Shown here: piece by piece, positions 4,444 through 57,744 of the stretch
Layout: each line of letters starts with the position of its first letter
How positions within the stretch are numbered: the first letter of the stretch is position 1
From: Lachnospiraceae bacterium
GTDB lineage: Bacteria; Bacillota; Clostridia; Lachnospirales; Lachnospiraceae
DNA length: 57,744 nucleotides
Assembly: GCA_017551165.1 (NCBI GenBank)
Contig: JAFZMO010000146.1
Span: 1-57,744, forward strand
Reading direction: 5' to 3'
Program-made: the position numbers and the translations under genes
The notes under the pieces: generated by a model
Told to the model about the DNA's origin: nothing
Database searches by the model: none
What the model saw: the letters and a program-made list of their open reading frames with translations, nothing else

Positions 4444-4482
4444 AGAAAATCTTTCGGAAAATGCGGGATCTCTCCCCTTCTC

Positions 4483-4511
4483 TTGCACCGCGCCTCCATT
4501 TCGGGTATACT
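4483..4511 (+). promoter_or_regulatory. Sigma-A-like promoter of the alpha/beta hydrolase gene
   Basis: TTGCAC (4483-4488), a 17-base spacer and TATACT (4506-4511) lie 38 bases before the ATG at 4549. The spacing and both hexamers are close to consensus. Confidence 0.75.
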
Positions 4512-4548
4512 GTGGATAATCCGATATCATTGGGGAGGAGAAGAGAGT

Positions 4549-5382
4549 ATGGGTTACGTTCAGATCAACGAGAGTATTCGCCTATTTTATGAAGAGTTCG
4601 GTGCCGGTGACCGCATCGTTCTTTCTGCGCAGGTCGGGTTTTACCCCATCGGCATGCAGCAGAAGCTCGCGCAGCTCGGCTACCACGTCTATTGCATCAC
4701 ACTGCGCGGCTTCGCGCCCTCGTCGTATGTCACCGAGGACTATGGCTCCGACTGGTACAACGTTTTCGCCGATGACGTCGTCGCGTTCGCAAACGCTCTC
4801 GGCATCCGGCGGTTCGTCTACATGGGAGCGTCGCACGGCGCCGGCGTCGGCTGGCACCTGATGCTTCGCCATCCCGAGCGCGTCCTCGCCTTCGTCGCCG
4901 TGGTCGCAGGTCCGCACAGCCTCAAGGAGGGCACGATGTCCTATCGCCAAATGCTCGAGCAGGGCATCATTTCGTCCCCGCCGCCCTTCGACCCACCAAT
5001 CGACGGCGATCCCGAGCGGCAGAAGCGCCGCGATGTCCGCACCGCGCACATTTCGTCGCGACAGACGCCTGCGGATCCCCGCGAGCGGGCCATCGATTAC
5101 GGGCGTCCCCTGATGGGGCTCGGCTCGGAGGAAGCGCTGTGTGACGCGCTTCGCACCATCACGGTGCCCACGCTCCTGATCGGCGGCACCGAGGATCCGA
5201 TCAGCACGATGGAGCTCATGTCGCGCACGGCCTCCTGCCTTCCGCACTGCAAGCTCGTCGTGTACTCGAACTGCGGCCACAACATCGACACCGACCTCAT
5301 CGAGGAGGTCACGGACGAGGCCGACCGCTTCATCCACGTCGCCGCCGCGACCGGCAAGTGGTACATGCCCGTCCATGCATGA
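4549..5382 (+). CDS. Alpha/beta hydrolase
   Basis: The product is 277 residues, starting at the ATG at 4549 with GGGGAGGAGA seven bases upstream; longer in-frame starts would fall inside the promoter. It has the standard alpha/beta-hydrolase order: strand-rich N-terminus, nucleophile elbow GASHG near residue 104 (catalytic Ser), acid region LLIGGTEDPIS and the late histidine in NCGHNIDTD. There is no signal peptide, so it is cytoplasmic. Its substrate cannot be read from the sequence. It is one of only three + strand genes here, has its own promoter, and ends at a shared terminator facing the phosphodiesterase gene. Confidence 0.88.
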   Translation: MGYVQINESIRLFYEEFGAGDRIVLSAQVGFYPIGMQQKLAQLGYHVYCITLRGFAPSSYVTEDYGSDWYNVFADDVVAFANALGIRRFVYMGASHGAGVGWHLMLRHPERVLAFVAVVAGPHSLKEGTMSYRQMLEQGIISSPPPFDPPIDGDPERQKRRDVRTAHISSRQTPADPRERAIDYGRPLMGLGSEEALCDALRTITVPTLLIGGTEDPISTMELMSRTASCLPHCKLVVYSNCGHNIDTDLIEEVTDEADRFIHVAAATGKWYMPVHA

Positions 5383-5392
5383 TTTGCGCATC

Positions 5393-5422
5393 AAAAATGC
5401 CCGCCGGTATGCGGGCATTTTT
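5393..5422. terminator. Bidirectional terminator between convergent genes
   Basis: A perfect 12-bp stem (AAAAATGCCCGC with GCGGGCATTTTT) closes a 6-base loop. It serves both the + strand hydrolase and the minus-strand phosphodiesterase, which converge here. Confidence 0.9.
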
Positions 5423-5441
5423 CGTGTTCTGATTATTACGC

Positions 5442-5468
5442 GTGACAAAAGAACCGTCCCCGTGTCAT
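5442..5468 (+). repeat. GTGACA/TGTCAC element, copy 1
   Basis: This 27-bp member of the nine-copy family reads GTGACAAAAGAACCGTCCCC on the + strand, with its last base changed (TGTCAT). The stop codon of the phosphodiesterase gene (5465-5467) lies inside it. Confidence 0.9.
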
Positions 5469-6556
5469 CGGAAAATGATGAGCGGGATCCGCATCTCGTC
5501 CTCGGTCAGGCTGCCGTGCATCGACTTCCAGCACTCGCCGGAGTAGTAGATCGTGAGGTCATCGGTCGCGATGGCGAGGTAGTCTCCGAGCATCGAGCGG
5601 AACATCGGGTGATGCTTGCCCGTGCCCATGAGGTTCTTCTCGATGACATCCTCCATCGGCATGAGGAGGAATTTGTCTCCGAAGAGGCGGTTGAACTCCT
5701 GAACGAAGAAGTCCTTCTTCTCCTCCTTCACGAAGAAATTCAGCGCGCGCGGCTCCAGCGACGGCCATCGTTTCAGGCACTCGCAGAGCTGCGGGTAATC
5801 CTTGAGGAGCACGTAATCCGTGTCGCTGTGACCGTGGTCCGCCGTGATCACGAACAGCGTGTCCGTCAGGCGCTCCGCGAGCTCGCTCACGACCTTCTCG
5901 AGGTGAAGCATCTCCTCGTGCGCCTCGTCCGAGCCGCAGCCGTTCCGGTGCAGTATGCCGTCCGGCTGGTTCCAGTAAGCGTAGATGTATCTCTGTCCCG
6001 ACTCCGCGCACAGGGTTTGGATGCGGTCGCAGATGTCCTCGATCGTGTCGAGGCTCGGGTCGGAGAACTTGATCAGCATATGAGCTTCCTTCCCGAAGCG
6101 GTTCAGCCGGTTGACTGCGCTCTCGTACGGCGTCAGCGTCCACGCAACGTTGTAGTCCGCGACCTGATCCTCCGTGCACTGCTTGCGGTTTAGAAACACC
6201 ACGACGTTCTCATCCAGCTGCGGATAGTAGCACTCCCAGCCGAGCCAGGCGTGCTCACACGGCTGCAAGCCCGACATCACCGACGTCGTCGCCGCCACCG
6301 TCGTCGAGAGGAACGTCGAGTTGTAGATACCCGCCACATGCGAGCGGAACGGTCCGTCCTCCGCCAGATGACGGTTGAGGATCTTCTCCCCCATGCCGTC
6401 CAGCAACAGCACCACGATGTTTTTGTAATCGCGGTCCATATATTGATCCAATAACGGCAGGCTCTTCCCTACCGTCTCCACGCCGAACTTCTTCATAACC
6501 GAGTTCGGCAGATTTGCTATGCAATTCTCATAATCCGGCCACACAAGCTTTGCCAT
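5465..6556 (-). CDS. NPP/alkaline-phosphatase-superfamily phosphodiesterase
   Basis: The product is 363 residues. Metal ligands of the type I phosphodiesterase/nucleotide pyrophosphatase fold are visible: Asp53 in LLLDGMGE, a Thr nucleophile region near residue 90 (STTVAATTSVMSG), Asp199 and His203 in YWNQPDGILH, and Asp240, His241 and His243 in ITADHGHSD. It has no signal peptide, so unlike many family members it should act in the cytoplasm. The substrate is unknown; nucleotide-sugar or phosphodiester metabolites fit the neighbouring sugar kinase and isomerase. It is the last gene of a leftward block, and its stop codon lies in a repeat element. Confidence 0.85.
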   Translation of the reverse strand: MAKLVWPDYENCIANLPNSVMKKFGVETVGKSLPLLDQYMDRDYKNIVVLLLDGMGEKILNRHLAEDGPFRSHVAGIYNSTFLSTTVAATTSVMSGLQPCEHAWLGWECYYPQLDENVVVFLNRKQCTEDQVADYNVAWTLTPYESAVNRLNRFGKEAHMLIKFSDPSLDTIEDICDRIQTLCAESGQRYIYAYWNQPDGILHRNGCGSDEAHEEMLHLEKVVSELAERLTDTLFVITADHGHSDTDYVLLKDYPQLCECLKRWPSLEPRALNFFVKEEKKDFFVQEFNRLFGDKFLLMPMEDVIEKNLMGTGKHHPMFRSMLGDYLAIATDDLTIYYSGECWKSMHGSLTEDEMRIPLIIFR

Positions 6557-6576
6557 ACAATCCTTTACCTTTCAGT

Positions 6577-6595
6577 TCATTTTCCGACGAAAAAT
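6577..6595. repeat. Imperfect palindrome built from the CATTTTCCG motif
   Basis: CATTTTCCGACGAAAAATG sits in the 45-base gap upstream of the phosphodiesterase gene. It is an inverted pair of the window-wide over-represented motif. Similar spacer palindromes occur at 14922-14936, 26380-26394 and 41981-41996. Confidence 0.6.
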
Positions 6596-6601
6596 GCTCC
6601 G

Positions 6602-7432: not shown

Positions 7433-7441
7433 AACCCCTCC

Positions 7442-7468
7442 GTGACAAGGGGACGGTTCTTTTGTCAC
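7442..7468 (-). repeat. GTGACA/TGTCAC element, copy 2
   Basis: This 27-bp element is in the opposite orientation to copies 1 and 3 (GGGGACGGTTCTTTTGTCAC on the + strand). With copy 3 it forms an inverted pair flanking the 88-residue gene at 7515-7781. Confidence 0.9.
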
Positions 7469-10786: not shown

Positions 10787-12292
10787 CTACGACAATACTA
10801 CGTTCGATATGTATTCAAGCACCACCAAAAGTAGGTTCAGCAGCACGAGGCCGCCGACCACGATCGCATGGCGCTTCTTCTCCTTGACGATCGTCGCGAT
10901 GAACTCGCGCACGAACGCGTTGATCCAGAAATAACTCCTCGTCTTGGCACCGATGCCCTCGAGGCGGAAGCCCTGTTCCGTCGCGAGAAGTCCCGCGCGC
11001 AGCACGTGGTAGTTGGTGGTGGAAAATGCGACCTTCGGGGAGGCCGCGTCCGCTCCGTCCGCGGGAGCATTTTCCGAGATCAGCTCCAGGGAATTGCGAA
11101 GGTTCTGTTCGGTGTTGAAGGACCGGTCCTCCAAAAGGATCTGCTCCTCGGGAACGCCGTTCTCCGTGAGGTACCTGCGGATCGCCTCCGCCTCCGACAC
11201 GATCTCGTCATCGCCCTTGCCGCCCGACGGGATGAACGTGATGTCGCGTCCCGTCTTCTCCTTCTGCATCTTTGCAAACTCGACCGCGCGGTCCGCGCGC
11301 GCCTGCAACAACTTCGTGAGTGTTCCGTCGCTGCGCAGACGGCAGCCGTGGATCAGGATGTAGTCCTTGTCAAACGCGGGCACATGCTTTGCCGCGCGCA
11401 CGCCGAGGAAGATCGTGCCGAACAGGATGCACTCGAGGTACGCCACCAGCGAGTAGACGACATTTTCCGAAAATGTCTCGACAAACCGCCCGATGCCCGT
11501 CCACCGGTGCACATCGATCAGCGTGGTCTGCTGGAAGAAGCTGTTCAGGAAGAACGGCAGCAGCGAGCCGAAGCCGAGGACGATCGCGAGGATCGACGCC
11601 AGCATGTTGCGCCAGCCGAAGCCCTCCTTCATCATCAGTCGGATGTTGCTCACGAACACGGAGATCGTCGTGAGGATGACGATCGGAAACGTGAACAGCA
11701 CGAGTGACGCCATCGTGTTCATCGCCTGCCGAAGCGCTGCGATCAGACCTCCGCCGGAGATCGCCCCGCGCACCTGCGAAAGCAGCGCAAACACGAGGAA
11801 AATGATCAGTCCCGCGTAGAGAATGTTGCGATACCGATACATGTTTTCCCGTACGGAATTGCGGAATTTGATGATCATCGCAACCAAGAGCGCCGCGAGG
11901 TAGATCGCGATCAACACCTGCATCAGCCGGCTGCCCGTGCACTCTCCGAAATAATCCTCGGACGTGATCACGCCGGACGCGTGGACATAGACGATCAGGT
12001 AGGACATGTTCAAGCCGTCCGTACCGGCCGGATGTTCTATAACCTGTAGGAATACCCTGCCCTTCCTCACAGACTTCATTCGGACGATGAGCTCGTCGCC
12101 CTCGACCTCACAGCCGAGGATCTCAACCTCTCCCTCCGAATCCTCTTCGCATCTCACGACAAAATGATTGCTCCTGCCGCCGAACTCGCTCAACTTCTTG
12201 TGGAGCTCGAACTCATTGCCGTTCACGAGGATATAGCAGGCTCCGATCGCTGCCATCACGACCGCCGCAACAACAAACCACAAACGCTTCAT
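10787..12292 (-). CDS. Polytopic membrane protein with YdcF/SanA-like (DUF218) domain
   Basis: The product is 501 residues. It has an N-terminal signal anchor (6-24), an extracytoplasmic segment (about 28-120), then five or so hydrophobic segments (about 125-300). The soluble DUF218 domain begins at DYILIHGCRLRSDGTLTKLL and contains SFNTEQNLRNSLELI and FSTTNYHVLRAG, the usual signature order. A final TM segment closes the protein. DUF218 proteins (SanA, ElyC, YdcF) are linked to envelope integrity, with no firmly established reaction. It starts four bases after the stop of the histidine phosphatase gene, so the two are probably coupled. Confidence 0.85.
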   Translation of the reverse strand: MKRLWFVVAAVVMAAIGACYILVNGNEFELHKKLSEFGGRSNHFVVRCEEDSEGEVEILGCEVEGDELIVRMKSVRKGRVFLQVIEHPAGTDGLNMSYLIVYVHASGVITSEDYFGECTGSRLMQVLIAIYLAALLVAMIIKFRNSVRENMYRYRNILYAGLIIFLVFALLSQVRGAISGGGLIAALRQAMNTMASLVLFTFPIVILTTISVFVSNIRLMMKEGFGWRNMLASILAIVLGFGSLLPFFLNSFFQQTTLIDVHRWTGIGRFVETFSENVVYSLVAYLECILFGTIFLGVRAAKHVPAFDKDYILIHGCRLRSDGTLTKLLQARADRAVEFAKMQKEKTGRDITFIPSGGKGDDEIVSEAEAIRRYLTENGVPEEQILLEDRSFNTEQNLRNSLELISENAPADGADAASPKVAFSTTNYHVLRAGLLATEQGFRLEGIGAKTRSYFWINAFVREFIATIVKEKKRHAIVVGGLVLLNLLLVVLEYISNVVLS

Positions 12293-12296
12293 AAAC

Positions 12297-14921: not shown

Positions 14922-14936
14922 CATTTTCCGGAAAAT
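14922..14936. repeat. Palindromic copy of the over-represented motif
   Basis: CATTTTCCGGAAAAT joins two half-sites of the window-wide motif, two bases downstream of the glmS stop codon. Confidence 0.65.
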
Positions 14937-16776: not shown

Positions 16777-16849
16777 AGTCGTTTACTCCTTGTCATCCAT
16801 TCAGAATTCGTATTTCGGAAAATGTATTCCCCAATCCATCGTCCGTTTT

Positions 16850-17535: not shown

Positions 17536-17564
17536 TTCCATTTTCCGCCCGCGTATGGTACAAT
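17536..17564 (+). promoter_or_regulatory. Probable promoter of the TlpA-4Fe-4S operon
   Basis: TACAAT (17559-17564) with a weak -35 TTCCAT (17536-17541) and a 17-base spacer, divergent from the XRE promoter. A copy of CATTTTCCG overlaps the -35 region. Confidence 0.55.
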
Positions 17565-18288: not shown

Positions 18289-18319
18289 CATTTTCCGAAG
18301 ATGACTCAGGAGTCCGCCC

Positions 18320-19328: not shown

Positions 19329-20720
19329 TCATTTTCTCACCGAATAGTAATACCGGCCCTTCGTCTCCACGAGCACGCCGATCACGGAGCTCTCGCTCAC
19401 GCCCTCGGGCAGGTAGCAGGAGAATCCGTTGTCGCCGAGTTCCGCTGCGCCGAGCAGCTCCTGCTCGAACACCGGGAACGCCTCGTAGAACACGCTGCCC
19501 TCCCCTTCCTTAGCGACCATATACACGCGGTAAGAGTCACCGAGCCACGTCTCGTCAAGGTATCCGTAGATGTGCGACAGTCCGCCCGACTCCTCGCTCG
19601 CCCAGAAATTGTAATCGCCGGGCATGTCGATCGCATCGAGGATATCGATCTCCGCGCGCGGAGCCTCCATCAGAGGCGCCTTGGACGCCAGATTGATCAG
19701 GTTGCGCTCCACGATCTCCAGGATCACCGTGTCGGCTCCGACACGATCCACTGAGCTCATGCGGTACGGCACCGCACGCTCGAACTCCGCCTTCTTGAAC
19801 GCCTGCGCAAAATACCGCCACGTCGTGTTTCCGAACGAGTCGCGGAACATCAGCAGGCTTCCCTCTCCCGCACCGCCGACGGTCTCGATCACGAGCGATT
19901 CGTCGAAGACAACACCCTTCGTGGTGAAGGTATATTCGATGTCGGGATACTTCTGCATATCGTCGTCCGGCGCGTCAGGATACAGCATGTTCGCAAGGTC
20001 CGCATCCCAGTCGTTGCGCTCCGTGAACGTCACATTCTCAAAGAGGTCGTGCTGCGACGAGAGCCGCCCGATGATCGTGCGGTACGCAAGCATGCCGCCC
20101 TCGTACGTCCAGTGCGAGTCGCGTTCCTGGTACAGCACGCGGGAGTCCGCGCCAAACGCATCGCGCAGGTCGACAAACTTCACGCCGAGGTCGTACACCT
20201 GCGTCACGACCGCGTCGAGGTTGCTCGGGCCGTCCGCCCTGTGGTAGCGGTCGGGCATATTTTCCGAATAGAGCGTATTCTTGTTCGGCGCCACCGTGAA
20301 GACGAACTCCGCGCCGTGCTCCGCGCAGTAATCGCTCATCAGCCGAAGCGTCCTCGCGATGTTGTTTGCGTTTCGGTCGGAAAATGTTCTCACATGGCAG
20401 TAGTCGTCCGCCGTCTCCGCATAGTACAGCCAGCCGTTCTTCCCGAGGATCACCTGATTTTCCGACGACTCCCCGAACAGCTTCTCCTTCAGCGCAGTCT
20501 GCGCCTTCACCAGCCACGAGCGGCCGCCCATGTGGTCGGAGAACCACGCGTCGAACTGCGTGAAATAGTTCTTATTCAGCTTGCCGTCCTCCGTGACATG
20601 CGGAAACTCTGCCTGCTCCCGCTTCTCCGACGCGGACGTGTCCTTCGACATCCACACCGTACAGAGCGGCACCAGACAGATCATCAGATAGATCACGATG
20701 AAAGCAAGCTTCTTTCTCAT
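19329..20720 (-). CDS. AlgX/AlgJ-like SGNH (DHHW-type) protein
   Basis: The product is 463 residues with an N-terminal membrane anchor or signal (5-25). It carries the alginate O-acetyltransferase-like SGNH features: VFTVAPNKNTLY, the Asp-x-His pair in ERDSHWTYEGG (about 205), and the Ser region MFRDSFGN (about 297). Such proteins act outside the membrane, transferring acetyl groups delivered by an MBOAT partner. The partner is the adjacent gene, 11 bases upstream in the same operon. The target is probably a secreted or wall polysaccharide. It is the last gene of the envelope operon. Confidence 0.87.
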   Translation of the reverse strand: MRKKLAFIVIYLMICLVPLCTVWMSKDTSASEKREQAEFPHVTEDGKLNKNYFTQFDAWFSDHMGGRSWLVKAQTALKEKLFGESSENQVILGKNGWLYYAETADDYCHVRTFSDRNANNIARTLRLMSDYCAEHGAEFVFTVAPNKNTLYSENMPDRYHRADGPSNLDAVVTQVYDLGVKFVDLRDAFGADSRVLYQERDSHWTYEGGMLAYRTIIGRLSSQHDLFENVTFTERNDWDADLANMLYPDAPDDDMQKYPDIEYTFTTKGVVFDESLVIETVGGAGEGSLLMFRDSFGNTTWRYFAQAFKKAEFERAVPYRMSSVDRVGADTVILEIVERNLINLASKAPLMEAPRAEIDILDAIDMPGDYNFWASEESGGLSHIYGYLDETWLGDSYRVYMVAKEGEGSVFYEAFPVFEQELLGAAELGDNGFSCYLPEGVSESSVIGVLVETKGRYYYSVRK

Positions 20721-20731: not shown

Positions 20732-22141
20732 CTAGAACCGGAAATAAATAAACGGATTATAGCTCTCCGACGCCAGCGCCATCAGCGCCAGGCCGAGGAT
20801 CGCAAGAGCCATCGCCATCGCGGCAAAATCGCCGAAGCGCTTGCCCGAGCGGGACATCTGCCAGCGCACCGCAAGCGCCCGCGGAAGCGGCGTACAGCCG
20901 ATGACGGCGCACACAAGCACCAGGATCGCGTACGGCGACAACAGCGCCGCTGCCTTCACAAACCCAAAGCCGTTGGCTGCGCCGAAGCCGAACATCGCGG
21001 CGATCATGTAGCCCGCCTGCGACAGTGTGTCCGCGCGGAATACGACGAAGCCGATCGTCACCATGAGAAGCGCATAGATGTGGTTAAACACCTTCCAGCC
21101 GCGGCCCACGGGGATCCACTCCTTCTCCTCCAGCATCTGCAGCGTGCCGTGGAACAGACCCCACACGAGGAACGTCCAGTTCGCGCCGTGCCAGAAGCCG
21201 GTGCAGAAGAACACGACGTATTTGTTGAAGATCGTGCGCGCCTTGCCCTTGCGGTTGCCGCCGAGCGGAATGTAGAGGTAATCGCGGAACCACGTGGACA
21301 GCGAGATGTGCCAGCGGCGCCAGAACTCGCGGATGCTTCCGGAGATGTACGGATAGTTGAAGTTCTCCAGAAAATGGAACCCGAACATGCGGCCGAGGCC
21401 GATCGCCATGTCGGAGTATCCGGAGAAGTCAAAGTAGATCTGCATGAGGTACGCGATCGCACCCACCCACGAGGCGAGCAGGCCGACGTTGTCCTTCGGC
21501 ATCGCAAACACGGTGTCCGCAATGTACGCCATCGTGTTGGCGATCAGGACCTTCTTGCCGAGACCGACGCTGAACCGCAGAAGTCCCGTGTAAATGTCGT
21601 CCACGGTCGCGTTGCGGTGGCGGATCTCATTCTCGATGTCGTGGTATTTGACGATCGGGCCCGCGATGAGCTGCGGGAAGAACGAAACATAGAGAAGCAG
21701 GCGGAAGAAGCTCCGCTGCACCTCGGTCTGTCCGCGGTACACGTCGATGACGTACGAAAGCGCCTGGAACGTGTAGAAGGAGATGCCGATCGGAAGCGAC
21801 AGCTTCGGCACCGGCAGCGCCGCCCCCTCGGGGAGCACCATGTTGAGTGACTCGACGAAGAAGCCCGCGTACTTGAACACGAACAACAGACCGATATTGA
21901 CAATGACCGCGAACGTCAGGACCATTTTCCGATGACTGCCCGCCACGCCGATGCCGAAGAGGTAGTTGCAGAGCACCGAGATCAGCAGCAAAATGACATA
22001 GACAGGCTCCCCGTAAGCGTAGAACAAAATGCTCGCGAGGATCAGGACCGCATTTCTGAGCCTGCCGTTCGGAAGAACCGCGTGCAACAGAAACACGATC
22101 GGAAAGAAAATGCACAAAAACGTCACGGAACTGAAAACCAT
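20732..22141 (-). CDS. MBOAT-family O-acyltransferase (AlgI/DltB-like)
   Basis: The product is 469 residues with about ten TM segments. Signature sites are REFWRRWHISLSTWFRDYLY, IPLGGNRKGK and the catalytic histidine in CTGFWHGANWTF. AlgI/PatA-like members move acetyl groups from a cytoplasmic donor across the membrane. Paired with the AlgX-like gene this makes a polysaccharide or peptidoglycan O-acetylation module. No dlt genes are near, so D-alanylation of teichoic acid (DltB) is less likely. It lies 15 bases after the transglutaminase gene. Confidence 0.93.
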   Translation of the reverse strand: MVFSSVTFLCIFFPIVFLLHAVLPNGRLRNAVLILASILFYAYGEPVYVILLLISVLCNYLFGIGVAGSHRKMVLTFAVIVNIGLLFVFKYAGFFVESLNMVLPEGAALPVPKLSLPIGISFYTFQALSYVIDVYRGQTEVQRSFFRLLLYVSFFPQLIAGPIVKYHDIENEIRHRNATVDDIYTGLLRFSVGLGKKVLIANTMAYIADTVFAMPKDNVGLLASWVGAIAYLMQIYFDFSGYSDMAIGLGRMFGFHFLENFNYPYISGSIREFWRRWHISLSTWFRDYLYIPLGGNRKGKARTIFNKYVVFFCTGFWHGANWTFLVWGLFHGTLQMLEEKEWIPVGRGWKVFNHIYALLMVTIGFVVFRADTLSQAGYMIAAMFGFGAANGFGFVKAAALLSPYAILVLVCAVIGCTPLPRALAVRWQMSRSGKRFGDFAAMAMALAILGLALMALASESYNPFIYFRF

Positions 22142-26403: not shown

Positions 26404-27120
26404 TCAGTTGTAGCTCGCATCCAGCAGTGCAATCTCCGTCACCACGTCATCGTCGAGGTAGAAGAGCATCTGGATCGTGCCGTCACTGTAGGTGATGATC
26501 GAACCGTCATCCTCCGCGGGATCGCCGTAGGTCTCAAGGATCTCCCCTGCCGTAGATCCGACCTTGATGCCCCTGGGCGTCTCTCCGACATCGCCCGAGA
26601 CACTCACAAGATACACTATCTCGCGGCTGTTCTTCGACAGCGTATTGACGACGAGGCCGTCATAGTAGTAGTTGACGTCGTTGCCGTCATCCATGCAGGC
26701 AACGCCCTCCAGGCGCTCCTTCACCTTGCCGACCGATTCCGCCATCCCCGTGAAGTCCATGTTCGGCTTGACGGTCACCCCGTTCACGACATAGGCGCAG
26801 TCCGCCGCCGAGAAGCTGCCGTCCGCAGGCGGCGTATCCGGGCCGGGATCGTCGGTCGGATGCAGACCGGGCGTCACATCGCCGGGCGTCACCTCCGGCT
26901 TGGGCGTCGGTGTGGGTGTCGCAGTCGGCGTGGGCGTCGGCGTCGGCGAAGGCTCATCGGAGTCCACGTAGAGCGTGCTGTCGCCCTCCCCCTTGCCGAT
27001 GCCGAGCACAACGCGGTTTGCCCCGTCTTCCCCGGGAGCTCCCCTGCGTTCCGCGCAGCCGACAAGCGCGAGAACAAGCACCGCGAACAGCAGTATCATT
27101 TTCCGACGCTTCAACCTCAT
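26404..27120 (-). CDS. Lipoprotein with Thr/Pro linker, first gene of envelope operon
   Basis: The product is 238 residues from the ATG at 27120 (MRLKRRKMILL); a longer frame would read through the promoter. The signal ends in the lipobox ALVGC (Cys22). A (Thr-Pro)n linker spans about 55-95. The C-terminal ~130 residues form a small alpha/beta domain containing GIKVGSTAGEILETYGDP and ITYSDGTIQMLFYLDDD. This reads like the BamE/SmpA-type or PepSY-like small folds of secreted proteins, but I cannot assign it. It is exported and membrane-anchored. It follows a near-consensus promoter and leads the operon that ends with the O-acetylation pair. Confidence 0.8.
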   Translation of the reverse strand: MRLKRRKMILLFAVLVLALVGCAERRGAPGEDGANRVVLGIGKGEGDSTLYVDSDEPSPTPTPTPTATPTPTPKPEVTPGDVTPGLHPTDDPGPDTPPADGSFSAADCAYVVNGVTVKPNMDFTGMAESVGKVKERLEGVACMDDGNDVNYYYDGLVVNTLSKNSREIVYLVSVSGDVGETPRGIKVGSTAGEILETYGDPAEDDGSIITYSDGTIQMLFYLDDDVVTEIALLDASYN

Positions 27121-37501: not shown

Positions 37502-38562
37502 TGCTTTACACTTCTCCTTATGCTTCCTACCGCCAGATTCAGCAGCGTGAACACCGCAATGAATCCCGCCAGGATCAGGATCGCGCTCTTCACATAGTCG
37601 CTGTGGCCCATGCCGGACAGCTCGACGAGCGCCCGGTTCTCATGATAGATCGGGTCCAGCTGTTTGAGCCAGTCGGGATGCGACGAAAACATGTACGTCT
37701 CGAAGCTTCCGCCGATGTATCCGAGAACCCACACGATGCCGAAGGAAATGATGATCGACGCGAGCATGCTGTTCGTCAGCTCGTAGATAAACATCTCCAT
37801 CGCCGTCGCCGCCATGACCGACAGCAGCACGATCACTGCCGACAGGGCGATCTTCCCCCAGTGGACACCCATGATCACACCACCGACAAGCGACGCGATG
37901 CCGATGCCGCCCGCAACCGTCGCCACAAGCGGGATATACCGTGCCAGGAACAGCTGCAGTACCGAGAGGTTCGACACGCGAAGCCTCTCGTCGATGCGGT
38001 GCTTCTTCTCGCTCGAGAACAGCCCCGCCGCGCACACGAGTGCGCACCAGCCGAAGTATACGACATAGATGATCCCGTAGTAGTCGGTCGAGTCGATCGC
38101 CGGCACGAAGAACGGCTTCTCGGTCGTAAACCGAACCTGTGTGTAGTCACCGCTGATCGCACTGTTCACGATCGCCGAGAGCATGTATTGGAGCGTGCCG
38201 CTCTGCGCCTTCGTGTCCTCCGTCTCATAGATCGTGTAGGAGTCGCTTCCGAACTCCACGAAACCGCCGAGCTTGTAGTCCTTGATCAGCTTTTCGGGGT
38301 CTCCGTCCTTGTACTCCGCGAACGTGATCCCGCTGTCCCTGCCGGCCGCTGCGACCTTGTCCATGTAGCCGTCAAACACACTCTCCTCCGCCACACGGTA
38401 TCCGACCGTGAACTGCCCCGAGCCCTCGTAGCTCTCCATCATTGCGGAAAATGCGCTGATCAGCACCGCCGAGATCACGATCGGGCAGAGCACGTACAGC
38501 AGGATGTTCACCGGGCTGCGGTACATTATTTTCAGATTGTTTTTTATCAAATATCGAATCAT
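37498..38562 (-). CDS. ABC-2-type permease subunit 2
   Basis: The product is 354 residues from the ATG at 38562 behind GGAGAG; an earlier GTG lies inside the ATPase gene. It shares the layout of subunit 1: N-terminal TM (about 18-40), extracytoplasmic domain to about 165, then five or six TM helices, with DERLRVSNLSVLQLFLARYI ahead of the second. It works with subunit 1 and the ATPase. Confidence 0.9.
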   Translation of the reverse strand: MIRYLIKNNLKIMYRSPVNILLYVLCPIVISAVLISAFSAMMESYEGSGQFTVGYRVAEESVFDGYMDKVAAAGRDSGITFAEYKDGDPEKLIKDYKLGGFVEFGSDSYTIYETEDTKAQSGTLQYMLSAIVNSAISGDYTQVRFTTEKPFFVPAIDSTDYYGIIYVVYFGWCALVCAAGLFSSEKKHRIDERLRVSNLSVLQLFLARYIPLVATVAGGIGIASLVGGVIMGVHWGKIALSAVIVLLSVMAATAMEMFIYELTNSMLASIIISFGIVWVLGYIGGSFETYMFSSHPDWLKQLDPIYHENRALVELSGMGHSDYVKSAILILAGFIAVFTLLNLAVGSIRRSVKQ

Positions 38563-39548: not shown

Positions 39549-40301
39549 TCATTGCGCGTTGGCCGCGTACAGCTCCGCGCGTTTGTTCTGCCACTGCAGC
39601 TCCTTGGTCAGGCGGTCGTATTCCTCCCACCGTCCGGCCTTCACCGCCGCCGCAGCCTCGTCCTCCCAGCCGTTCTCCTTCGCGAACACATCCGCATCGA
39701 TCGACGCCGCATAAAGCCGAAACTGCTCTGTTGTCATCCTCGGAAAATGTTTCCGCGTCCACTCCGGGATCACCACATCCGCGTCCGTCAGCCTTGCAAG
39801 CACCTTTCGGAATCTCTCCGCATAGTACTTCTGACCGATCCCTTCGGCAAACGCCGCGATCTCCGTGAGGACCCGCCGGTACTCTTCCGTGCAGTTTGCA
39901 AACTGCGGAAGGCCTGCCGGCGCGGTCGGGAAATCATTTTCCGTAAATGTGTACACAAACGGGTGCTGCTTATCCTTCACATTGCGGTCGAACTCGCTTC
40001 GCACCGTCCAATATGTCTTGCGGCCATCCCCGAACACCGTCAGAAGCCCCTGCCGGCCTTCCCACACAAAGTCTGCGTACGGCTCGCCACGGTCGCGGTC
40101 ACCGAGCGCGTAGAACGCATACGCGTTCGTGACGCCCCGCCCGGTCAGCTCCGTCTTCCAGGCTTCCTTGCCCTCGACTTCCGCATCTGCGAACCGGAAT
40201 ACCATCCGGTCCTTCTCCCTCTCCAGCTCGTATGTCTCCCCCATCGGCACATCACGCAGATATGCCGCAAGCTGCGCCAGCATAAACATATCGCCTCTCA
40301 T
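39549..40301 (-). CDS. Hypothetical cytoplasmic protein
   Basis: The product is up to 250 residues. The start is uncertain: ATGs at 40301, 40289 and 40283 are all possible and none has an ideal site, though GAGAGG precedes the later two. It has no signal, TM helix or recognised motif. It is mixed alpha/beta, with blocks such as AYAFYALGDRDRGEPYADFV and an acidic, helical C-terminus. It follows a small membrane protein gene by 17 bases and shares its promoter (40847-40875). Confidence 0.7.
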   Translation of the reverse strand: MRGDMFMLAQLAAYLRDVPMGETYELEREKDRMVFRFADAEVEGKEAWKTELTGRGVTNAYAFYALGDRDRGEPYADFVWEGRQGLLTVFGDGRKTYWTVRSEFDRNVKDKQHPFVYTFTENDFPTAPAGLPQFANCTEEYRRVLTEIAAFAEGIGQKYYAERFRKVLARLTDADVVIPEWTRKHFPRMTTEQFRLYAASIDADVFAKENGWEDEAAAAVKAGRWEEYDRLTKELQWQNKRAELYAANAQ

Positions 40302-43242: not shown

Positions 43243-44213
43243 AGTTCCTCCAAAAGGTCATACAGCGCATCCTGCGAGAGCACGCCGCGGAGCATGTCCC
43301 GAGGGAACATTCCCTCCTCGTCCGCCTCGTAATCGCCGAGGAAACCGTCGTTTAAATAGTTCTTGAGGACATCGATCTGCTCCTTGTTCGCCTTGCCGGC
43401 CTTCGCAAGGTTGAACAGCTCCTCCATGCGGCGCACGCGCTCGGTGCGCAGGAAGATCTCGATGCCGCGCTCGTCGTTGCCGCCGATAACTTCGTCCGCG
43501 ATCCGCTTCACCTCGGGCTCCGCATTACCCATCGCGATGCCCCGCCCGCAGCACTGCAGCATGCCGATGTCCGCGAGATCGTCGCCGAAGGCAACGATCT
43601 GCTCCGAGGGAAGACCGAGACACTCACACAGCACGTCGATCGCATGCTCCTTCGTGATCCCGTGGTTCGTGAACTTATACCAGTCGCCGTCCGAGAACTT
43701 GATCGCATCCAGCTGCGGAAAATGCCCGATCACCTCGCGGGCCTTCCCCGCATCCGCGATCTCCAGGCAGATCTTGAGCGCGCTCTTGCGGAAGTTTCGG
43801 AATGTGATCTTCCGCCCGCGCCGGAAGCTTCTCGTGAGCACGTCGTCCGGCATCACAAAATTCAGATAGTAGCTGCCGTCAGCTGCGTCCAGCGTGATGT
43901 TGACATCCCCACCGACAACGCTCTTTGCGTACCGCACCAGCTCTCGGACCTGCGCCGCCTCAACAGCCGACTCAAAGATTTTCTCGCCCCGCAGCTCCAC
44001 CGTTGCGCCGCCGCTTGCGATGATCACGTCCGGCACAAGCCGCCCGGTGTACTGCGCCGAATTCTCCGCGCTCCGCGACGTTGAAACGCCGATCATCACG
44101 CCGGCTCTTCGGTACTCTCCGAGCACCGCGAGCGCCCCCTCCGGGATCGTCTTGTCGCTCCCCAGAAGCGTCCCGTCCAGATCAAACAGATACAACTTCT
44201 TCTCGTCAAACAT
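43239..44213 (-). CDS. Cof-type HAD-superfamily phosphatase with C-terminal extension
   Basis: The product is 324 residues, starting behind CAGGAGG. HAD motifs are complete: motif I LYLFDLDGTLLGSD (nucleophile Asp), motif II GVSTSRS, motif III Lys in AIKFSDGDWYK and motif IV VAFGDDLADIGML. The type IIB cap lies between II and III. After the usual end there is a ~60-residue helical extension (ERVRRMEELFNLAKAGKAN and onward) that typical Cof proteins lack. It probably dephosphorylates sugar phosphates or flavin/nucleotide metabolites. Its stop codon lies in repeat copy 8. Confidence 0.9.
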   Translation of the reverse strand: MFDEKKLYLFDLDGTLLGSDKTIPEGALAVLGEYRRAGVMIGVSTSRSAENSAQYTGRLVPDVIIASGGATVELRGEKIFESAVEAAQVRELVRYAKSVVGGDVNITLDAADGSYYLNFVMPDDVLTRSFRRGRKITFRNFRKSALKICLEIADAGKAREVIGHFPQLDAIKFSDGDWYKFTNHGITKEHAIDVLCECLGLPSEQIVAFGDDLADIGMLQCCGRGIAMGNAEPEVKRIADEVIGGNDERGIEIFLRTERVRRMEELFNLAKAGKANKEQIDVLKNYLNDGFLGDYEADEEGMFPRDMLRGVLSQDALYDLLEEL

Positions 44214-44234: not shown

Positions 44235-44948
44235 CTACTCCTCTGTCCCTTGTTCTCCCCGTAGATCTTGCGTGATCTGCATCAGACTGCGATGCCTGAG
44301 CTTGCGCGGCTCAAAGCGGATCAGAGAATACACCGCCTGCATCACGAGCCCGGCGCCGAACGTGCTGAGCAGCGTGCCGATGCCGATGGGGCCGCCGAGC
44401 AGCCAGCCGAACAGCAAGACAACCGCCCAGAGCAGCACCTCCACGATGCCGATCGGCACCTTCGGGAGCCGCTTCCCCAGACCCACCAGCAGCGCGTCAC
44501 GCGGACCGCAGCACTGCTGTGCGCTCATGTAGATCCACATCCCGAGCGCCATAAAAACAAACCCGGCGAGCATGATGACCACGCCGAGCAGCGTGCTTTT
44601 GTTGGTCGGTAGGTGATTGAGCGAATTGAACATCTGCACGAAATTGCCCGTGAGCAGCGCGTCGATCACGGTGCCGTAACCGATCCGTTCGCGCAGGATG
44701 ATATCGATGACCAGCACGGTCACTGCGACGCAGGTCATCGAGAGCCCGTAATCGAGCGGCGTGTGCTTCGCGATGCCCATGCCGAGGCAGTCCCATGGCG
44801 CCAACCCGATGTTGGCGTAGATCGTTCCGTGCACGCCGAAGGAAAATACCAAAAGCCCCGCCACGATCTGCAGCCATTCGCGCACGATGCGTTTCCGTCC
44901 GCGCGCTCCCGACTGCTCGGTGGTTTCATTTTCCGAATGTAACTCCAT
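44235..44948 (-). CDS. YczE/YyaS-like integral membrane protein
   Basis: The product is 237 residues, from the ATG at 44948 behind GGGAGG. A charged N-terminal tail is followed by five TM segments. Family marks are GTIYANIGLAPWDCLGMGIA, MSAQQCCGPRDALLVGLGKR and GWLLGGPIGIGTLLS. The family is widespread in Bacillota and its transport or regulatory role is unproven. It follows the aldo/keto reductase gene by 11 bases and precedes the HAD gene by 21. Confidence 0.85.
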   Translation of the reverse strand: MELHSENETTEQSGARGRKRIVREWLQIVAGLLVFSFGVHGTIYANIGLAPWDCLGMGIAKHTPLDYGLSMTCVAVTVLVIDIILRERIGYGTVIDALLTGNFVQMFNSLNHLPTNKSTLLGVVIMLAGFVFMALGMWIYMSAQQCCGPRDALLVGLGKRLPKVPIGIVEVLLWAVVLLFGWLLGGPIGIGTLLSTFGAGLVMQAVYSLIRFEPRKLRHRSLMQITQDLRGEQGTEE

Positions 44949-46711: not shown

Positions 46712-46777
46712 GTCCGTACCCCCACGGAAAATGTTTCTACTATTCTACACTATCCCCTCGAAACTGGCAAGGGGACC

Positions 46778-49858: not shown

Positions 49859-50649
49859 TCTTCCTTTCCGAACCTCACCGTGAATACGGTTCGGTCCTCT
49901 TCTGTTTCCAACGCTACTGTTCCGTTGTTCGCCGTCAGAATCTTCGTGACGATCGCGAGCCCCATTCCATGGCCTTCGCCCTTTTTTGTGGTAAATCCCT
50001 TTCGGAAAATGGCCTCCCGAATCTCGTCCGGTATCTTCGGGCCGTTATTTTCCACTTCGAAGAGATAACTCTCTTTCGTCTCCGTGATGTTGACGCGAAC
50101 GGTTTTTTCTTCTCTATTACAATCCCCCAAAGCACGGATCGCATTGTCGATCAGGTTCGAGAGCACCTTGCAGAGCTCCCAGTCCTCGATCTGCAGTCCC
50201 GCCAGGTCCGACTTGACCTCGATCAGGAACTCGATCCCCTTCGCCTCCGACTCCGCCGACTTCGCTGCCAGCAGAGCGTTGATCGCAGGTTTCGATGTCT
50301 TGATGGCCTTGCCGGTCTTCAGCAGGTCCTTGTAGACCTTCCGGAGATACTCGTTCATCTCGTCGTACTCCTCCAGCTCCATCAACCCGTATACCACCTG
50401 CAGGTGATTCAGGTAATCGTGCCGGTCCATTCTGAGTCTGTCGTTCAGCTGACTGAGATTGTCGAGGCTCTCCCGGAGCGCCCGGTTCCGGCTCGCCTGT
50501 TTCAGGTAGTTCGAAGCCAGAATCACCAGACACGCCATAAGCGCCACGATCACCAGGATCAGCAATACCAGATAAACTTTATCTTCCACAACACCCTCCG
50601 TGATCACTTTGTGACCCAAGAATACCACTTCCGCGTTCGGAAACAACAT
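49855..50649 (-). CDS. GHKL-type (AgrC-like) sensor histidine kinase
   Basis: The product is 264 residues from the ATG at 50649. The promoter -10 is so close to it that the RNA leader would be about 6 bases, so the GTG at 50589, with GGAGG five bases upstream, is a credible real start. One TM helix (about 28-50) has no extracellular sensor. A coiled coil leads to the phospho-His box MDRHDYLNHLQVVYGLMEL. The ATPase domain has the N-box VLSNLIDNAIRAL, VENNGPKIP and GEGHGMGLAIV. It is the expected partner of the LytTR regulator four genes later. With no sensor domain, input may come through the co-encoded NfeD/FloA/6-TM proteins. Confidence 0.92.
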   Translation of the reverse strand: MLFPNAEVVFLGHKVITEGVVEDKVYLVLLILVIVALMACLVILASNYLKQASRNRALRESLDNLSQLNDRLRMDRHDYLNHLQVVYGLMELEEYDEMNEYLRKVYKDLLKTGKAIKTSKPAINALLAAKSAESEAKGIEFLIEVKSDLAGLQIEDWELCKVLSNLIDNAIRALGDCNREEKTVRVNITETKESYLFEVENNGPKIPDEIREAIFRKGFTTKKGEGHGMGLAIVTKILTANNGTVALETEEDRTVFTVRFGKEE

Positions 50650-52247: not shown

Positions 52248-55200
52248 TTACGCTCTGCGACGTCTCCTGTTCACTGCGATGATCATGACAACCGCACCGA
52301 GCATCGCATGCACCAAAAGTCCCAAATTGATGACATCACCGGTCGTCGGCGTAGGGACCGGCTCCTCCGGCTTCGTTTCCGGCTCTGCGGGTTTCGTCTC
52401 CGGCTCTTCCGGCTCCGCAGGTTTCGTCTCCGGCTCTTCCGGCTCCGCAGGTTTCGTCTCCGGCTCTTCCGGCTCCGCAGGCTTTGTCTCCGGTTCTTCC
52501 GGCTCCGCAGCCTTCTCCTCCACACGGAACTTGGCAACAACGTCACCGTCAACATCGTCAAACGTCGCAGTCAGGGAGTGTTCCCCGACCTCCAGTCCGT
52601 CAAGGAATTCCGGAAGGAGCTCCACGATCAGACTGCCCCGGCTCGTCTTGGATCCACCTGTCGGGATTGCCTTTCCATCCACAAGGATTGACTTCGAGTG
52701 ATCGAATGTGGACGAATCCTCGACATTGCTCTTGTACTCGAAGATCAAACTGATCCCGTCGCTCTTCGTGTGGATCGGTACATCCTTCTTCGGATCGAGT
52801 GCAGCGCTTCCGTCACCGTATTTTACGGAACTGAGATAGTATTCCTTCTTTGTTTCCGCCGTGATCTCCGTCGCCGTAAATTGTGCTGTGTAAGTCGCAT
52901 CCCCCGTAACCTCGGTGATCTCGGGCTCCCAGGTGTCGTTAAATGTATACGTGTACTGCTGCGTTGCCTTCTTCGTCGGCACATTTCCCGTGTACACAGG
53001 CTTCGTACCGTACGCAACAACGCCGCTCTGCAACACGTTGCCATCGCCGTCGACAAATGTTATCGTGCATCCGTAAATCTCGAACGTTATGCCACAGTCC
53101 TTCGGCAGCTTGTAATTATCATTGGAGAGCACTGTCGCGGTCGCCGTGTGATCCTTGCCAATCTCCTTGGCGGTTCCTTCCACAGTGACTTCGCACGAAT
53201 CGCCCTCGACCAGATTGGTTATCGTCACGACCGGCTGATGCTCCTTCCCATCGTACGGGAACTTCAGGTCGCTCCAGGACAATGTTACCTCTCGTTGGCT
53301 GATCGACAGCGTACCGACCGTGCTCTTCACATCCAAATAGCAATCCTCATTGGTCAGCTCATAGGAAAATGTATTGTTTCCCTCAGAACTGTCCGCGCAA
53401 TCTTTCACGCCTTTCAGACCGGTATCCGTCGTTGTGATGGTCACGGTATCCCCGGTCGGAAGAGTAAACACCTTACCACCACTGTTCGCATCCGCCGGCA
53501 CTTCTGTGCCACCGTAAGTCACCTTGTATGTTCCCGAGTGTACTTTGCCATCGTATTCCCAGTCCTGCGTAGAGGATTCGATAACCAGCTGATTGGCATC
53601 GACTACTGTGATCAAGCAGGTTTTCGATATCTGATCTCCCTCAGAATCGACTCCGACCGTAGTTACCATTACTGCCGCCTCCCCGCAAATGTCCGAAGCT
53701 TTGATATACACGGCAGCGCCGCTTTCAACTTCTTCCGACGAGGACAATTCCTCGCTGCAGTCCTCATCCTTGTACAGCATGATCAAGGCATCTCCCGCGG
53801 TCACACTCCATGTTACTTTCGTGTTGTCCGCGTTGTCAGGGGATACCTCCGCTGTCAATGCAAGGACTCCTCCGATTGTGATCTGCTCCTCCTCCGCTTC
53901 CTTCTCACCGTTTTTTATCGCAACATCGATCACACAGACGGGTGCCGTCACATCGATGATCTGTACATTGGAAAAGCAGGGCGCATACTCCGTACCGTCA
54001 ATCGTTTCACCGGAAAATGCAGCGCGCACGTAGTACTCTCCGCTGGTGTCAGGGGCATCTGTCCATTCATAGCCCGTGGTCTTGCAAAATTGCAGGGAAA
54101 AAGTATCTGCCGAAGCCTCCAGGCTTTCCGAATCCTCTTCCTTTGCTTTCAACGTTACCTTCGGGACAAAGTCCGCGATATCATCAGCCGTAAACCCGTC
54201 CGCAAGATGAAGCGAAGGATTTTTTGCAAAACTGTCTCCGGTATATTCACTCACGGTAGAATTAAACTCATGCGCATACTGCGGGCTGGGCAAGCCGACA
54301 AGATTGGTATATTCATCACCCGTGTTGGCGCTGTTTTGATAAAGTGTTAACGTGTTTCCGTTGCGACCGGCAATCCACCACTCGATTGGCTTTTTATCGG
54401 TTCCTGTTCCGATATACAGTTTTTGATATGTAGCATTTACACCGACATAGGACTGATCCTCGTCGAATTCTCTGCCTTCAAGGAAAGTGCATTCTTCCTC
54501 ACTGCCATATACGCCCCAGGAACACGACAGGTCACTCTTATATGCGAAAACACGAGGGTTTGTGCTTTGGGTCTCGTTGGCAACCTCGGCAACTCCGCTT
54601 TCACTGATTATGAACGTCAACGGTTCCGAAGCGCTTGCCAGTGAATCATTTGTCGCCGGGGTCTCCGCCCAGACCTTCACCGTATACCCTTTCAGATCCA
54701 ACGTATTTGTGAACGTCACGGAAGTTGTATCCTCGCCCAAAACCTCAATACTGCCAATACAAACAGTGTCTCCGGCTGCTGCATTTTCCGTAGGAGTATT
54801 CTTATCCCACGACTTATATACCTGTACCATTAAATACTTGTCCTTAGGCAGTGGATTACTAGAGGTAAATGTCAATTCATTATTACTGGTATTGTATGTG
54901 ACTTCGCCATCAAGTTTGATCTCTGCACTGATCTCTTTCAGATACATTCCCCAGGACGGGACAAAACTATCGTCTTTTACATCCAATTTAGAATACTCGC
55001 TGATTTCAATTTTTAATAGACTTGTGTTCGTTACTGTCGGAGCAGCAGCAACAGCTGTAAACAAATCCGACGGCAAAACGATGTTGCCGCATGCACAAAC
55101 GGCATATGTGCGGATCTTATTTGTGTTCCCAGTGTCGATGATCTCATTGCTGCTGACATCCCAACCATAATCAGAAGATACTACATTCCCCTTGTCGTTA

Positions 55201-56095: not shown

Positions 56096-56102
56096 TTAGT
56101 TC

Positions 56103-56382
56103 CTACTTAACACACATCTTTGATATCAGTTCTACTTTTCCACCGGTGATAATCATGTTGTATTTCATTCCCAAAAAGGTGGTGAAACTGAAAGACTTAT
56201 TATCGATAACCTGGAGACCGACGCAAGTATCAGGTCTTTTTGCGACAACTATATCACACATATTCCAAACACCGTCTATGTAAAGATTGTTCTTCTTAAG
56301 ATTTCCGGCATTATGTTCATCCGGATCCCAATCTCAGGAAAGAATATATTCTCCTAGTTTATAATCGTGTTTTGTAAACATA
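56103..56382 (-). pseudogene. Frameshifted small gene (about 92 residues if repaired)
   Basis: From the ATG at 56382 the frame reads MFTKHDYKLGEYILFL and soon hits a stop. Removing one base near 56334-56336 restores a single frame to the TAG at 56103, giving DWDPDEHNAGNLKKNNLYID and later FLGMKYNMIITGGKVELISK. The intact downstream frame with sensible composition argues for one single-base indel, real or a sequencing error. The protein is unrecognised; it could belong to an immunity-like small-gene set. Confidence 0.6.
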
Positions 56383-56413
56383 TTAACCTCTGATCTACTA
56401 TCCCGAAATATTG

Positions 56414-56812
56414 CTACTCTTCTTCGCGATCCTCAACATATGCCAAAAATGAATCCTGCAATTCACAGTCATTTTCATGATCATTCAGCTGAACCTTGAT
56501 TGATATATCTTCCGGTCCTTCGAATCCGTCAAGAATAGCCATAACATTTGATATTGTGTCAACGATAGTACTCTTGATTATTGAAAACAATACCTGCTTT
56601 CCTTCATCATCTAGTCTATTGTATAAACCAATGGCATTCTTCCAGTATTCGATTGTACCTTCCTCATTAGGATCACACGAAAAGAACTGTTTGTACAATT
56701 CCATGTTGCCTTCAACAACATTTTTGTAGATTTCCTCAGTAAACAAATCAACCATTGATTTATAATCTCCATAACATAAATGCCAAAAGATATCTGCCGT
56801 TCCGAGGGACAT
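56414..56812 (-). CDS. Acidic small hypothetical protein, AT-rich
   Basis: The product is 132 residues, with no clear ribosome-binding site before the ATG at 56812 (a T6 run precedes it), so the start may be elsewhere or expression weak. It is very acidic (ends EDREEE) and probably helical: MVDLFTEEIYKNVVEGNMEL, EYWKNAIGLYNRLDDEGKQV. Base composition is strikingly AT-rich against the GC-rich flanks, suggesting recent acquisition. No family is recognised; small acidic proteins in such patches are often immunity proteins, which is only a guess. Confidence 0.65.
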   Translation of the reverse strand: MSLGTADIFWHLCYGDYKSMVDLFTEEIYKNVVEGNMELYKQFFSCDPNEEGTIEYWKNAIGLYNRLDDEGKQVLFSIIKSTIVDTISNVMAILDGFEGPEDISIKVQLNDHENDCELQDSFLAYVEDREEE

Positions 56813-56826
56813 AAAAAACCGATGTT

Positions 56827-57008
56827 TTACGATCCATTATCAGGATCAATTTCGTTGTCGGTCAACATTTTCCTAAGCCGCATGATTTCATCGATCAACA
56901 GCGGCACATCCTGCCTGCAGGAAGCGATAAAATCCTGATCGGCGATCGAGGACCCGCTGTGGCTTGCTCACACCTATGCTGAATTGCTATGAGGTCTTTC
57001 ATTTCCAT
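56827..57008 (-). pseudogene. Frameshifted remnant of a small phage-type protein
   Basis: The N-terminus MEMKDLIAIQHRCEQAT and the C-terminus GSSIADQDFIASCRQDVPLL are in different frames; 182 bases is not a multiple of three. From memory, full-length relatives read RCEKATPGPW, then a middle segment, then ADQDFIANARQDIPxLLDEI. The middle is missing here, so an internal deletion plus frameshift is likely. Confidence 0.55.
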
Positions 57009-57082
57009 CGTACGATCTCCCTCGCATAATCTCTGACTTGGTATTTTTCTAATTGTACCATATCGCAATCATATTGAACAGC

Positions 57083-57114
57083 AAAAAGTCCCCGGTCGCA
57101 AGGATCGGGGACTT
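57083..57114 (-). terminator. Terminator of guaA
   Basis: AAGTCCCCG pairs with CGGGGACTT and five T follow on the minus strand, 37 bases after the guaA stop codon. Confidence 0.92.
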
Positions 57115-57150
57115 CTACTCTCACTGTTATGTGCACTTTATTATGTGCTT

Positions 57151-57744
57151 TTACTCAAACTCGATTGTTCCCGGCGGTTTACTCGTAAGGTCGTAGAATA
57201 CGCGGTTGACGCCGCGGACCTCCTTGATGATGCGGTTCATGACGATGTCGAGAACCTCATAAGGAATGTGCGCGGAGTCCGCGGTCATGAAGTCCGTCGT
57301 GCGGACTGCGCGGAGCGCGATCGCGTAATCGTAGGTGCGCTCGTCTCCCATGACGCCGACGGAGCGAACGTTCGTGAGCGCCGCATAGTACTGGTCTGGC
57401 TTCCACGAAGCGACCTCGCCGGTCTCCTTCTTGTACGCGTCGAGCGCCTTGCCGACTTCCTCGCGGAAAATGTAGTCCGCGTCCTGTACGATGCGGATCT
57501 TATCCTCGGTGATATCGCCGATGATGCGGATGCCGAGACCCGGGCCCGGGAACGGCTGGCGCATCACGAGCTTCTCCGGAATACCGAGCTCAAGGCCGGC
57601 CTTGCGGACCTCGTCCTTGAAGAGGTAGCGCAGCGGCTCCACGATCTCCTTGAATTTTACATAGGACGGCAGACCGCCTACGTTATGATGCGATTTGATG
57701 ACGGCCGACTCGCCGCCGAGGCCGGACTCCACAACGTCCGGATA
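57151..57744 (-). CDS. guaA: GMP synthase (glutamine-hydrolysing), C-terminal part
   Basis: The last 197 residues are present; the 5' part lies beyond the right edge. This is the dimerisation/synthetase C-terminus of Gua[68 protein letters not shown] and the invariant ending KPPGTIEFE. GuaA converts XMP to GMP in purine synthesis, with glutamine as nitrogen donor. A strong terminator follows. Confidence 0.97.

Follow-up and report, generated by a model that had tools for sequence, protein, structure and literature searches.

What maintains one short DNA word at many times its expected frequency, on both strands and inside genes as well as between them, throughout a bacterial genome? The question is raised by a stretch of 57,744 bases (GC content 0.574; hereafter the window) from the draft genome of a Lachnospiraceae bacterium, here called G000 (2.54 Mb, 160 contigs, completeness 91.41, contamination 7.69); in the window the most frequent 7-mer and 9-mer are GGAAAAT and CGGAAAATG. 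One protein of the window has its closest named homologues in metagenome-assembled genomes labelled Lachnospiraceae or Lachnoclostridium, several of them of ruminant source. At the sequence level the word behaves like the DNA uptake sequences (DUS) of Neisseriaceae, a likeness that is well supported. That it actually serves as a self-DNA uptake tag, in the manner of DUS or of the uptake signal sequences (USS) of Pasteurellaceae, is a proposition that we hold to be evenly balanced, and such a tag would be unexpected in a Gram-positive group.

Abundance of the word in the window and in the genome

Exact counting in the window gave 58 copies of GGAAAAT (29 on each strand), 38 of CGGAAAAT (19 and 19) and 23 of CGGAAAATG (12 on the plus and 11 on the minus strand). 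An earlier note on this DNA had estimated about 55, 36 and 23 by eye and described the strands as nearly equal, both of which agree well with the exact figures; eight of the nine positions it quoted are right to within a few bases, and the ninth, given as 10000, should read 9993. Its observation that copies fall in genes and in spacers and use different coding phases also holds, since 47 of the 58 7-mers lie within gene calls and 11 outside, and those 47 occupy all three phases and both orientations, unevenly. A search of the window for RNA families and tRNAs found none.

Is the excess a property of the window or of the genome? Across the whole G000 draft CGGAAAATG occurs 808 times (382 and 426 on the two strands), as against 4 (2 and 2) for the word read backward. 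Null models were built on 369.6 kb of G000 (15% of the genome, window included), where an order-3 Markov model predicts about 7.6 copies of CGGAAAATG on both strands and 122 are observed. For the 287 home-made gene calls in this sequence, synonymous codons were shuffled inside each gene and both sense and antisense copies were counted, giving 114 sense and 125 antisense 7-mers against 16.7 and 14.1 expected, and 36 and 43 copies of CGGAAAATG against 2.4 and 3.3. The excess in genes thus ranges from 8-fold for the 7-mer to 14-fold for the 9-mer, on both strands. Because it persists over synonymous shuffling, codon preference is excluded, as the earlier note had argued, and shuffles in relatives' genomes likewise rule out codon usage as the cause. 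The comparison with third-order Markov and codon-shuffled expectations that the note had proposed therefore places the counts in these 369.6 kb far above both. When all 7-mers were scanned for excess on both strands, ATTTTCC ranked first in G000 and in its relatives G009 and G002, and ATTTGCC ranked first in a further relative, G007. The over-representation is real and genome-wide.

Motif shape, orientation and spacing

Motif searches by expectation-maximisation (EM), run with an order-3 background and several seeds per genome, describe the word in G000 as the core of a degenerate motif, ttttCGgAAAATgc, approximated by tttyCGGAAAATGm and present at 1.64 sites per kb; the same core was obtained in G009 and G002. 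A narrower version in G000 has 632 sites in 430 kb, or 1.47 per kb. EM started from two unrelated seeds did not recover the motif and gave diffuse patterns only. Within a few bases of the core the flanks carry hardly more information than background, and for this reason a repeat family of the repetitive extragenic palindromic (REP) or miniature inverted-repeat transposable element (MITE) type was rejected as the source of the copies.

By fifth of gene, sites in G000 number 45, 40, 44, 38 and 46, and relative to the coding strand 96 are sense and 117 antisense, so that neither position nor strand shows a bias. Could the word nonetheless be Chi-like, KOPS (FtsK orienting polar sequence) or some other polar motif for recombination or segregation? 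Such motifs, too, are short words over-represented in a genome, but by taking the majority gene strand as the leading strand in stretches with more than 75% of coding bases on one strand, we find 141 co-oriented and 162 opposed 7-mers, and the window places 45 of its 48 gene calls on one strand and yet has its 7-mers evenly divided. A polar motif is therefore barely credible, and the earlier judgement that the word resembles Chi or KOPS less is borne out.

The coefficient of variation of spacing is near random (0.93 in G000, 0.91 in G009, 1.22 in G002, 1.00 in G007 and 0.96 in G004). Neighbours within 40 bp are mostly opposed rather than direct in G000 (48:6), G009 (8:3), G002 (6:0) and G007 (11:5), and a stricter site definition in G000 leaves 14 opposed and no direct close pairs. 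For USS and DUS, the available text of PMC1626085 gives about one site per kb, no orientation bias, spacing slightly more regular than random and some close opposed pairs.

Conservation of the word among relatives

Orthologues were paired between sampled stretches of 10 genomes from motif-rich clades, yielding 176 reference genes and 567 directed pairs. Codons for the same amino acid lying in CGGAAAAT or GGAAAATG sites were identical in 405 of 529 cases, compared with a fraction of 0.534 expected from those codons elsewhere (Mantel-Haenszel odds ratio (OR) 3.25), and six control word sets, consisting of one-base variants, other AT-rich words, scrambles and a common word, gave ORs of 0.45–0.77. 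Orthologue pairs are not independent, and for this reason pairs were weighted and 56 gene families, 28 of them containing sites, were bootstrapped, which gave an OR of 3.11 (1.95–4.94) with three control sets at 0.70–1.13. Conservation at synonymous sites in relatives, suggested in the earlier note as a check, is thus found. TTT was kept in 115 of 122 cases inside motif sites and in 821 of 1767 outside; the gain does not extend to every codon, GGA being kept in 6 of 26 inside and 1187 of 2908 outside. In the same retention test the word of the other dialect gave an OR of 2.85 and CG[ATC]AAAAT an OR of 2.02, and the variants CGGAAAAC and CGGAAAAG showed no protection. Amino-acid conservation is lower under the motif than elsewhere (0.786 against 0.865), and this combined with the higher codon retention indicates that the sites lie in permissive places and that the DNA word itself is held.

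Dialects across the genus and family

The word was compared over 22 genomes of the genus, 19 of which could be placed on a midpoint-rooted rpoB tree. Copies of CGGAAAATG range from 63 (G006) to 1060 (G009) and those of CGGCAAATG from 41 (G006 and G017) to 445 (G013), and related species use the alternative spellings CGGCAAATGC and GGCAAATGC. Two neighbouring clades are rich in CGGAAAATG, which EM finds de novo in G000, G009 and G002; G007, inside one of these clades, has shifted to CGGCAAATnC, on which EM converges from the seeds of both dialects. In a third clade the two spellings coexist at moderate density, and G004 there has cGGcAAATGC (3 of 4 EM seeds). In a fourth, EM yields GGcAAATGC in G015 (3 of 4 seeds), and in its congeners G006 (360 kb) and G017 (302 kb) no EM seed found the motif and the words stand near expectation, with CGGCAAATG in G017 still at a ratio of 3.6 (5 against 1.4, all sense). 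Within clade C, comprising G006, G017 and the dialect-bearing G015, the codon-retention OR was 1.75 on 52 codons for CGGAAAAT or GGAAAATG, and 0.74 and 0.81 for two other word sets.

Outside the genus, CGGMAAATG was counted in 248 genomes from the family's other genera, and its number per Mb was highest in G118, G253 and G134. EM on G118 gave cGGnCAATG(T/C) from 4 of 4 seeds at 1.7 sites per kb, a spelling of the form GGnCAATGY, with CGGCAAATG there at 8 against 0.4. Codon-shuffled ratios of each genome's own word are 13.3 in G000, 12.4 in G007, 7.9 in G004, 6.4 in G015 and 7.8 in G118 (53 against 6.8), and all dialects align without gaps on a CGGnnAATG frame. In G253, CGGMAAATG occurs 517 times against 24 for its reverse, and 6 times against 0.5 expected in 38 kb of genes; EM on 48.7 kb of mixed composition did not recover a motif, and for this reason the enrichment in G253 is one of counts only.

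These results bear on two explanations that invoke no uptake. A context-dependent bias of mutation or repair, without function, could act on both strands and could raise intergenic density, but it would have to produce a 7–9 bp word at 8- to 14-fold over expectation in genes, protect that word as seen for TTT while leaving CGGAAAAC and CGGAAAAG unprotected, and switch its spelling between close relatives, all of which makes it very improbable. Alternatively, a DNA methyltransferase or methyl-directed repair could create and keep the word, in the manner of HIP1 (highly iterated palindrome 1). In the accessible portion of PMC4390886 such palindromes are abundant, replaced by alternates in some cyanobacteria and tied to methyltransferases, but those described are GC-rich palindromes, and the present word is no palindrome, has a GC content below one half and shows degeneracy at several of its positions. 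An origin of this kind is improbable. The earlier note had likened the word to both DNA uptake sequences and HIP1-like oligomers; the first comparison gains support from how densely the word occurs, its neutral orientation, its dialects and the way it is conserved in permissive codons, and the second fits less well, the word being non-palindromic and degenerate, with dialects between species.

Candidate uptake machinery and a proposed model for self-DNA uptake

A fundamental question is which proteins could read such a word. Competence genes, which the earlier note had suggested looking for, are present in the genus: ComEA was found in 22 of 22 genomes (21 over the cut-off), ComEC in 20 of 22, and a strong PilC match (E below 1e-20 in the comparison of other genera described below) in 17 of 22. 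Inspection of 17 stretches (12–16.5 kb) around PilC from 16 genomes reveals a largely conserved type IV pilus operon. It includes a PilT (pilT_fam, 482 bits, over the cut-off), a PilB-like protein and PilC recognised by homology, and pilins recognised by their prepilin N-termini (N_methyl in 5 of 6 proteins); PilD and PilM/N/O are guesses for further conserved genes, made from size and order. G000 itself lacks a strong PilC match; its PilT, which runs into a contig end, matches that of G011 at every one of 229 residues. G012 (contig 175, L277) carries a further, distinct pilus locus that includes a separate PilC.

The fourth pilin of the operon matches TIGR02596, GspH, ComGD and PRK10506, all below cut-offs; PRK10506 we take to be PpdA. 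A search of Protein Data Bank sequences with an alignment of this pilin gave 7 matches, all pilin or pseudopilin chains and all ending within the first 65 positions. Nine of the 10 motif-bearing genomes in which it was found encode it with a net positive charge (the charge is 0 in G005), and it is +1 in motif-less G017, a pattern that is suggestive only. In the available text of two sources, the minor pilins ComGD and ComGF are required for DNA capture by the Com pilus of Streptococcus sanguinis (PMC12153270), and PpdA is the predicted USS receptor (PMC12616744).

We hypothesize that the word forms the core of a tag, spread over the whole genome, for the recognition of self DNA, and that this tag works as uptake sequences do in Neisseriaceae and Pasteurellaceae. 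On free DNA the tag would be bound by one of the minor pilins encoded in the type IV pilus operon, the best receptor candidate being the ComGD/GspH/PpdA-like pilin, perhaps together with its downstream neighbour. Retraction driven by PilT, followed by ComEA and ComEC, would then import tagged, and therefore kin, DNA; recombination of that DNA would maintain the frequency of the tag, and a shift in receptor preference would change the dialect.

Several observations weigh against this hypothesis. ComEC is near-universal, being found in 58 of 61 relatives in the order, and is therefore uninformative. Five of the 22 genus genomes have no strong PilC match, and in G010, G013, G020 and G021 (79–85% complete) nothing beyond a paralogue at about 50% identity and some weaker matches was seen. 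The motif-less G006 and G017 retain ComEC, ComEA and the PilT–PilC pilus, so the machinery is not sufficient. Among 20 other genera, a strong PilC was found in 4 of 10 picked for high CGGMAAATG but in 9 of 10 picked for low, and motif-rich G253 (98% complete) has no PilC of that type and no PilT; across these genera the presence of the pilus does not follow that of the motif. Genera with low counts may, like G118, spell the word in another dialect, and G253 may rely on its Tad-like pilus, may no longer have the pilus, or may employ the word for something else. At the level of the sites, the evidence for regular spacing is feeble, close pairs in G004 are more often direct (9) than opposed (5), and the bias to gene ends and reading orientation reported for known uptake sequences in the accessible part of PMC2346458 is not seen here.

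An alternative hypothesis is that an abundant cytoplasmic protein binds DNA at this word, with a role in organising the nucleoid, segregating chromosomes or controlling recombination, and that its specificity drifts from one species to another. This would fit the genome-wide spread, the higher 7-mer density outside genes of G000 (1.69 per kb, against 0.76 inside), the AT-rich core beside CG, the conservation of the motif and the enrichment in G253 without the pilus. However, the absence of polarity argues against any orientation-dependent use, and we know of no nucleoid or segregation protein with so many degenerate, non-polar, intragenic sites and with dialects within a genus. We regard such a protein as somewhat unlikely.

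Returning to the uptake hypothesis, its broader form, that monoderm Lachnospiraceae possess a dialect-bearing system of self-DNA recognition in which type IV minor pilins select kin DNA through a CGGnnAATG-type tag, is one that we would place a shade below even, judging from genome sequences. In the accessible text of the sources, only Neisseria species and Pasteurellaceae are said to show sequence-dependent transformation (PMC3630211), and monoderm uptake is stated to be without sequence specificity (PMC12153270). A literature search for an uptake-sequence-like motif in Lachnospiraceae or other monoderms, covering few subscription journals or preprints, returned no such title among the matches listed. 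If the hypothesis is correct, sequence-specific uptake would extend beyond two Gram-negative families, perhaps with a third origin, and this third case, with several dialects in one genus and motif-less congeners, would open the origin and turnover of tags to study and would bear on gene flow among rumen bacteria. Even if another protein uses the word, Lachnospiraceae have a genome-wide motif that is conserved, non-polar and split into dialects, and that so far lacks an explanation.

Copies and neighbouring features in the window

Table 1. Copies of CGGAAAATG in the window (first start 4455, last start 57464) and the wider 7-mer set.
Feature	Position	Strand	Remark
CGGAAAATG	4455..4463	+	outside gene calls
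CGGAAAATG	5469..5477	+	exact match
CGGAAAATG	6578..6586	-	outside gene calls
CGGAAAATG	11068..11076	-	exact match
CGGAAAATG	11461..11469	-	exact match
CGGAAAATG	14922..14930	-	outside gene calls; 1-base overlap with opposed 7-mer at 14930, inverted pair CATTTTCCGGAAAATA
CGGAAAATG	16816..16824	+	outside gene calls
CGGAAAATG	17539..17547	-	outside gene calls
CGGAAAATG	18289..18297	-	outside gene calls
CGGAAAATG	20378..20386	+	exact match
CGGAAAATG	21923..21931	-	within MBOAT gene 20732-22141
CGGAAAATG	27097..27105	-	outside gene calls
CGGAAAATG	28732..28740	+	exact match
CGGAAAATG	38445..38453	+	exact match
CGGAAAATG	39741..39749	+	exact match
CGGAAAATG	39935..39943	-	exact match
CGGAAAATG	43716..43724	+	exact match
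CGGAAAATG	44927..44935	-	exact match
CGGAAAATG	46725..46733	+	outside gene calls
CGGAAAATG	50003..50011	+	exact match
CGGAAAATG	54011..54019	+	exact match
CGGAAAATG	54782..54790	-	exact match
CGGAAAATG	57464..57472	+	exact match
58 GGAAAAT/ATTTTCC	4455..57472	29 per strand	position-weight motif 1.61 sites per kb over the window

Another repeat, about 27 bp long and unrelated to the word, GTGACA.GGGG.CGGTTCTTTTGTCAC, occurs in the window at 5446, 7455, 7828, 12969, 24200, 32211, 34407 and 46782; its core, CAAAAGAACC, has 8 copies in the window and 14 in 370 kb of G000, and the five copies inspected are imperfect palindromes, REP- or MITE-like. The window also encodes a choline-binding-repeat protein with a transglutaminase-like domain (22157-24379), beside the MBOAT acyltransferase (20732-22141) and an M15 peptidase (24400-26346), and these three genes also occur together in several relatives. 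At 52248-55811 lies a gene for a 1187-residue protein to which no Pfam family matches at 1e-8; it contains a 30-bp tandem repeat (52377-52510).

Comparison with known systems

How does the word compare with the systems it resembles, as far as the available text of the sources describes them? Like the Neisseriaceae DUS, it is a genome-wide, strand-neutral, non-palindromic word of about 9–12 bp, with dialects around a common core among relatives and sites that are permissive yet conserved (PMC3630211, PMC2397512), and it shares the close opposed pairs, here in G000. The sequences are unrelated (CGGAAAATG here, GCCGTCTGAA for DUS; PMC1626085), the exact-word count is 808 here against about 1900 for AT-DUS, and the hosts are Lachnospiraceae. 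About 55% of high-confidence terminators in Neisseria hold DUS (PMC1852404), whereas opposed pairs are few here.

The Pasteurellaceae USS similarly occurs about once per kb without orientation bias, in two dialects and with a 9-bp core (PMC1626085, PMC12616744). It differs in sequence and phylum, in its higher number (1471 copies of AAGTGCGGT in H. influenzae; PMC1626085) and in having PpdA/ComN as its predicted receptor (PMC12616744), where the present case offers only a sub-threshold PRK10506/GspH/ComGD-like pilin. Cyanobacterial HIP1 is likewise a highly iterated oligomer with alternates in relatives, but it belongs to the GC-rich palindromes tied to methyltransferases (PMC4390886), and CGGAAAATG is neither palindromic nor GC-rich. 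Finally, the monoderm Com pilus also has several minor pilins, one of those found here being ComGD-like by match, and it differs in that uptake there is described as lacking sequence specificity (PMC12153270), while a PilT-family ATPase lies in the operon here.

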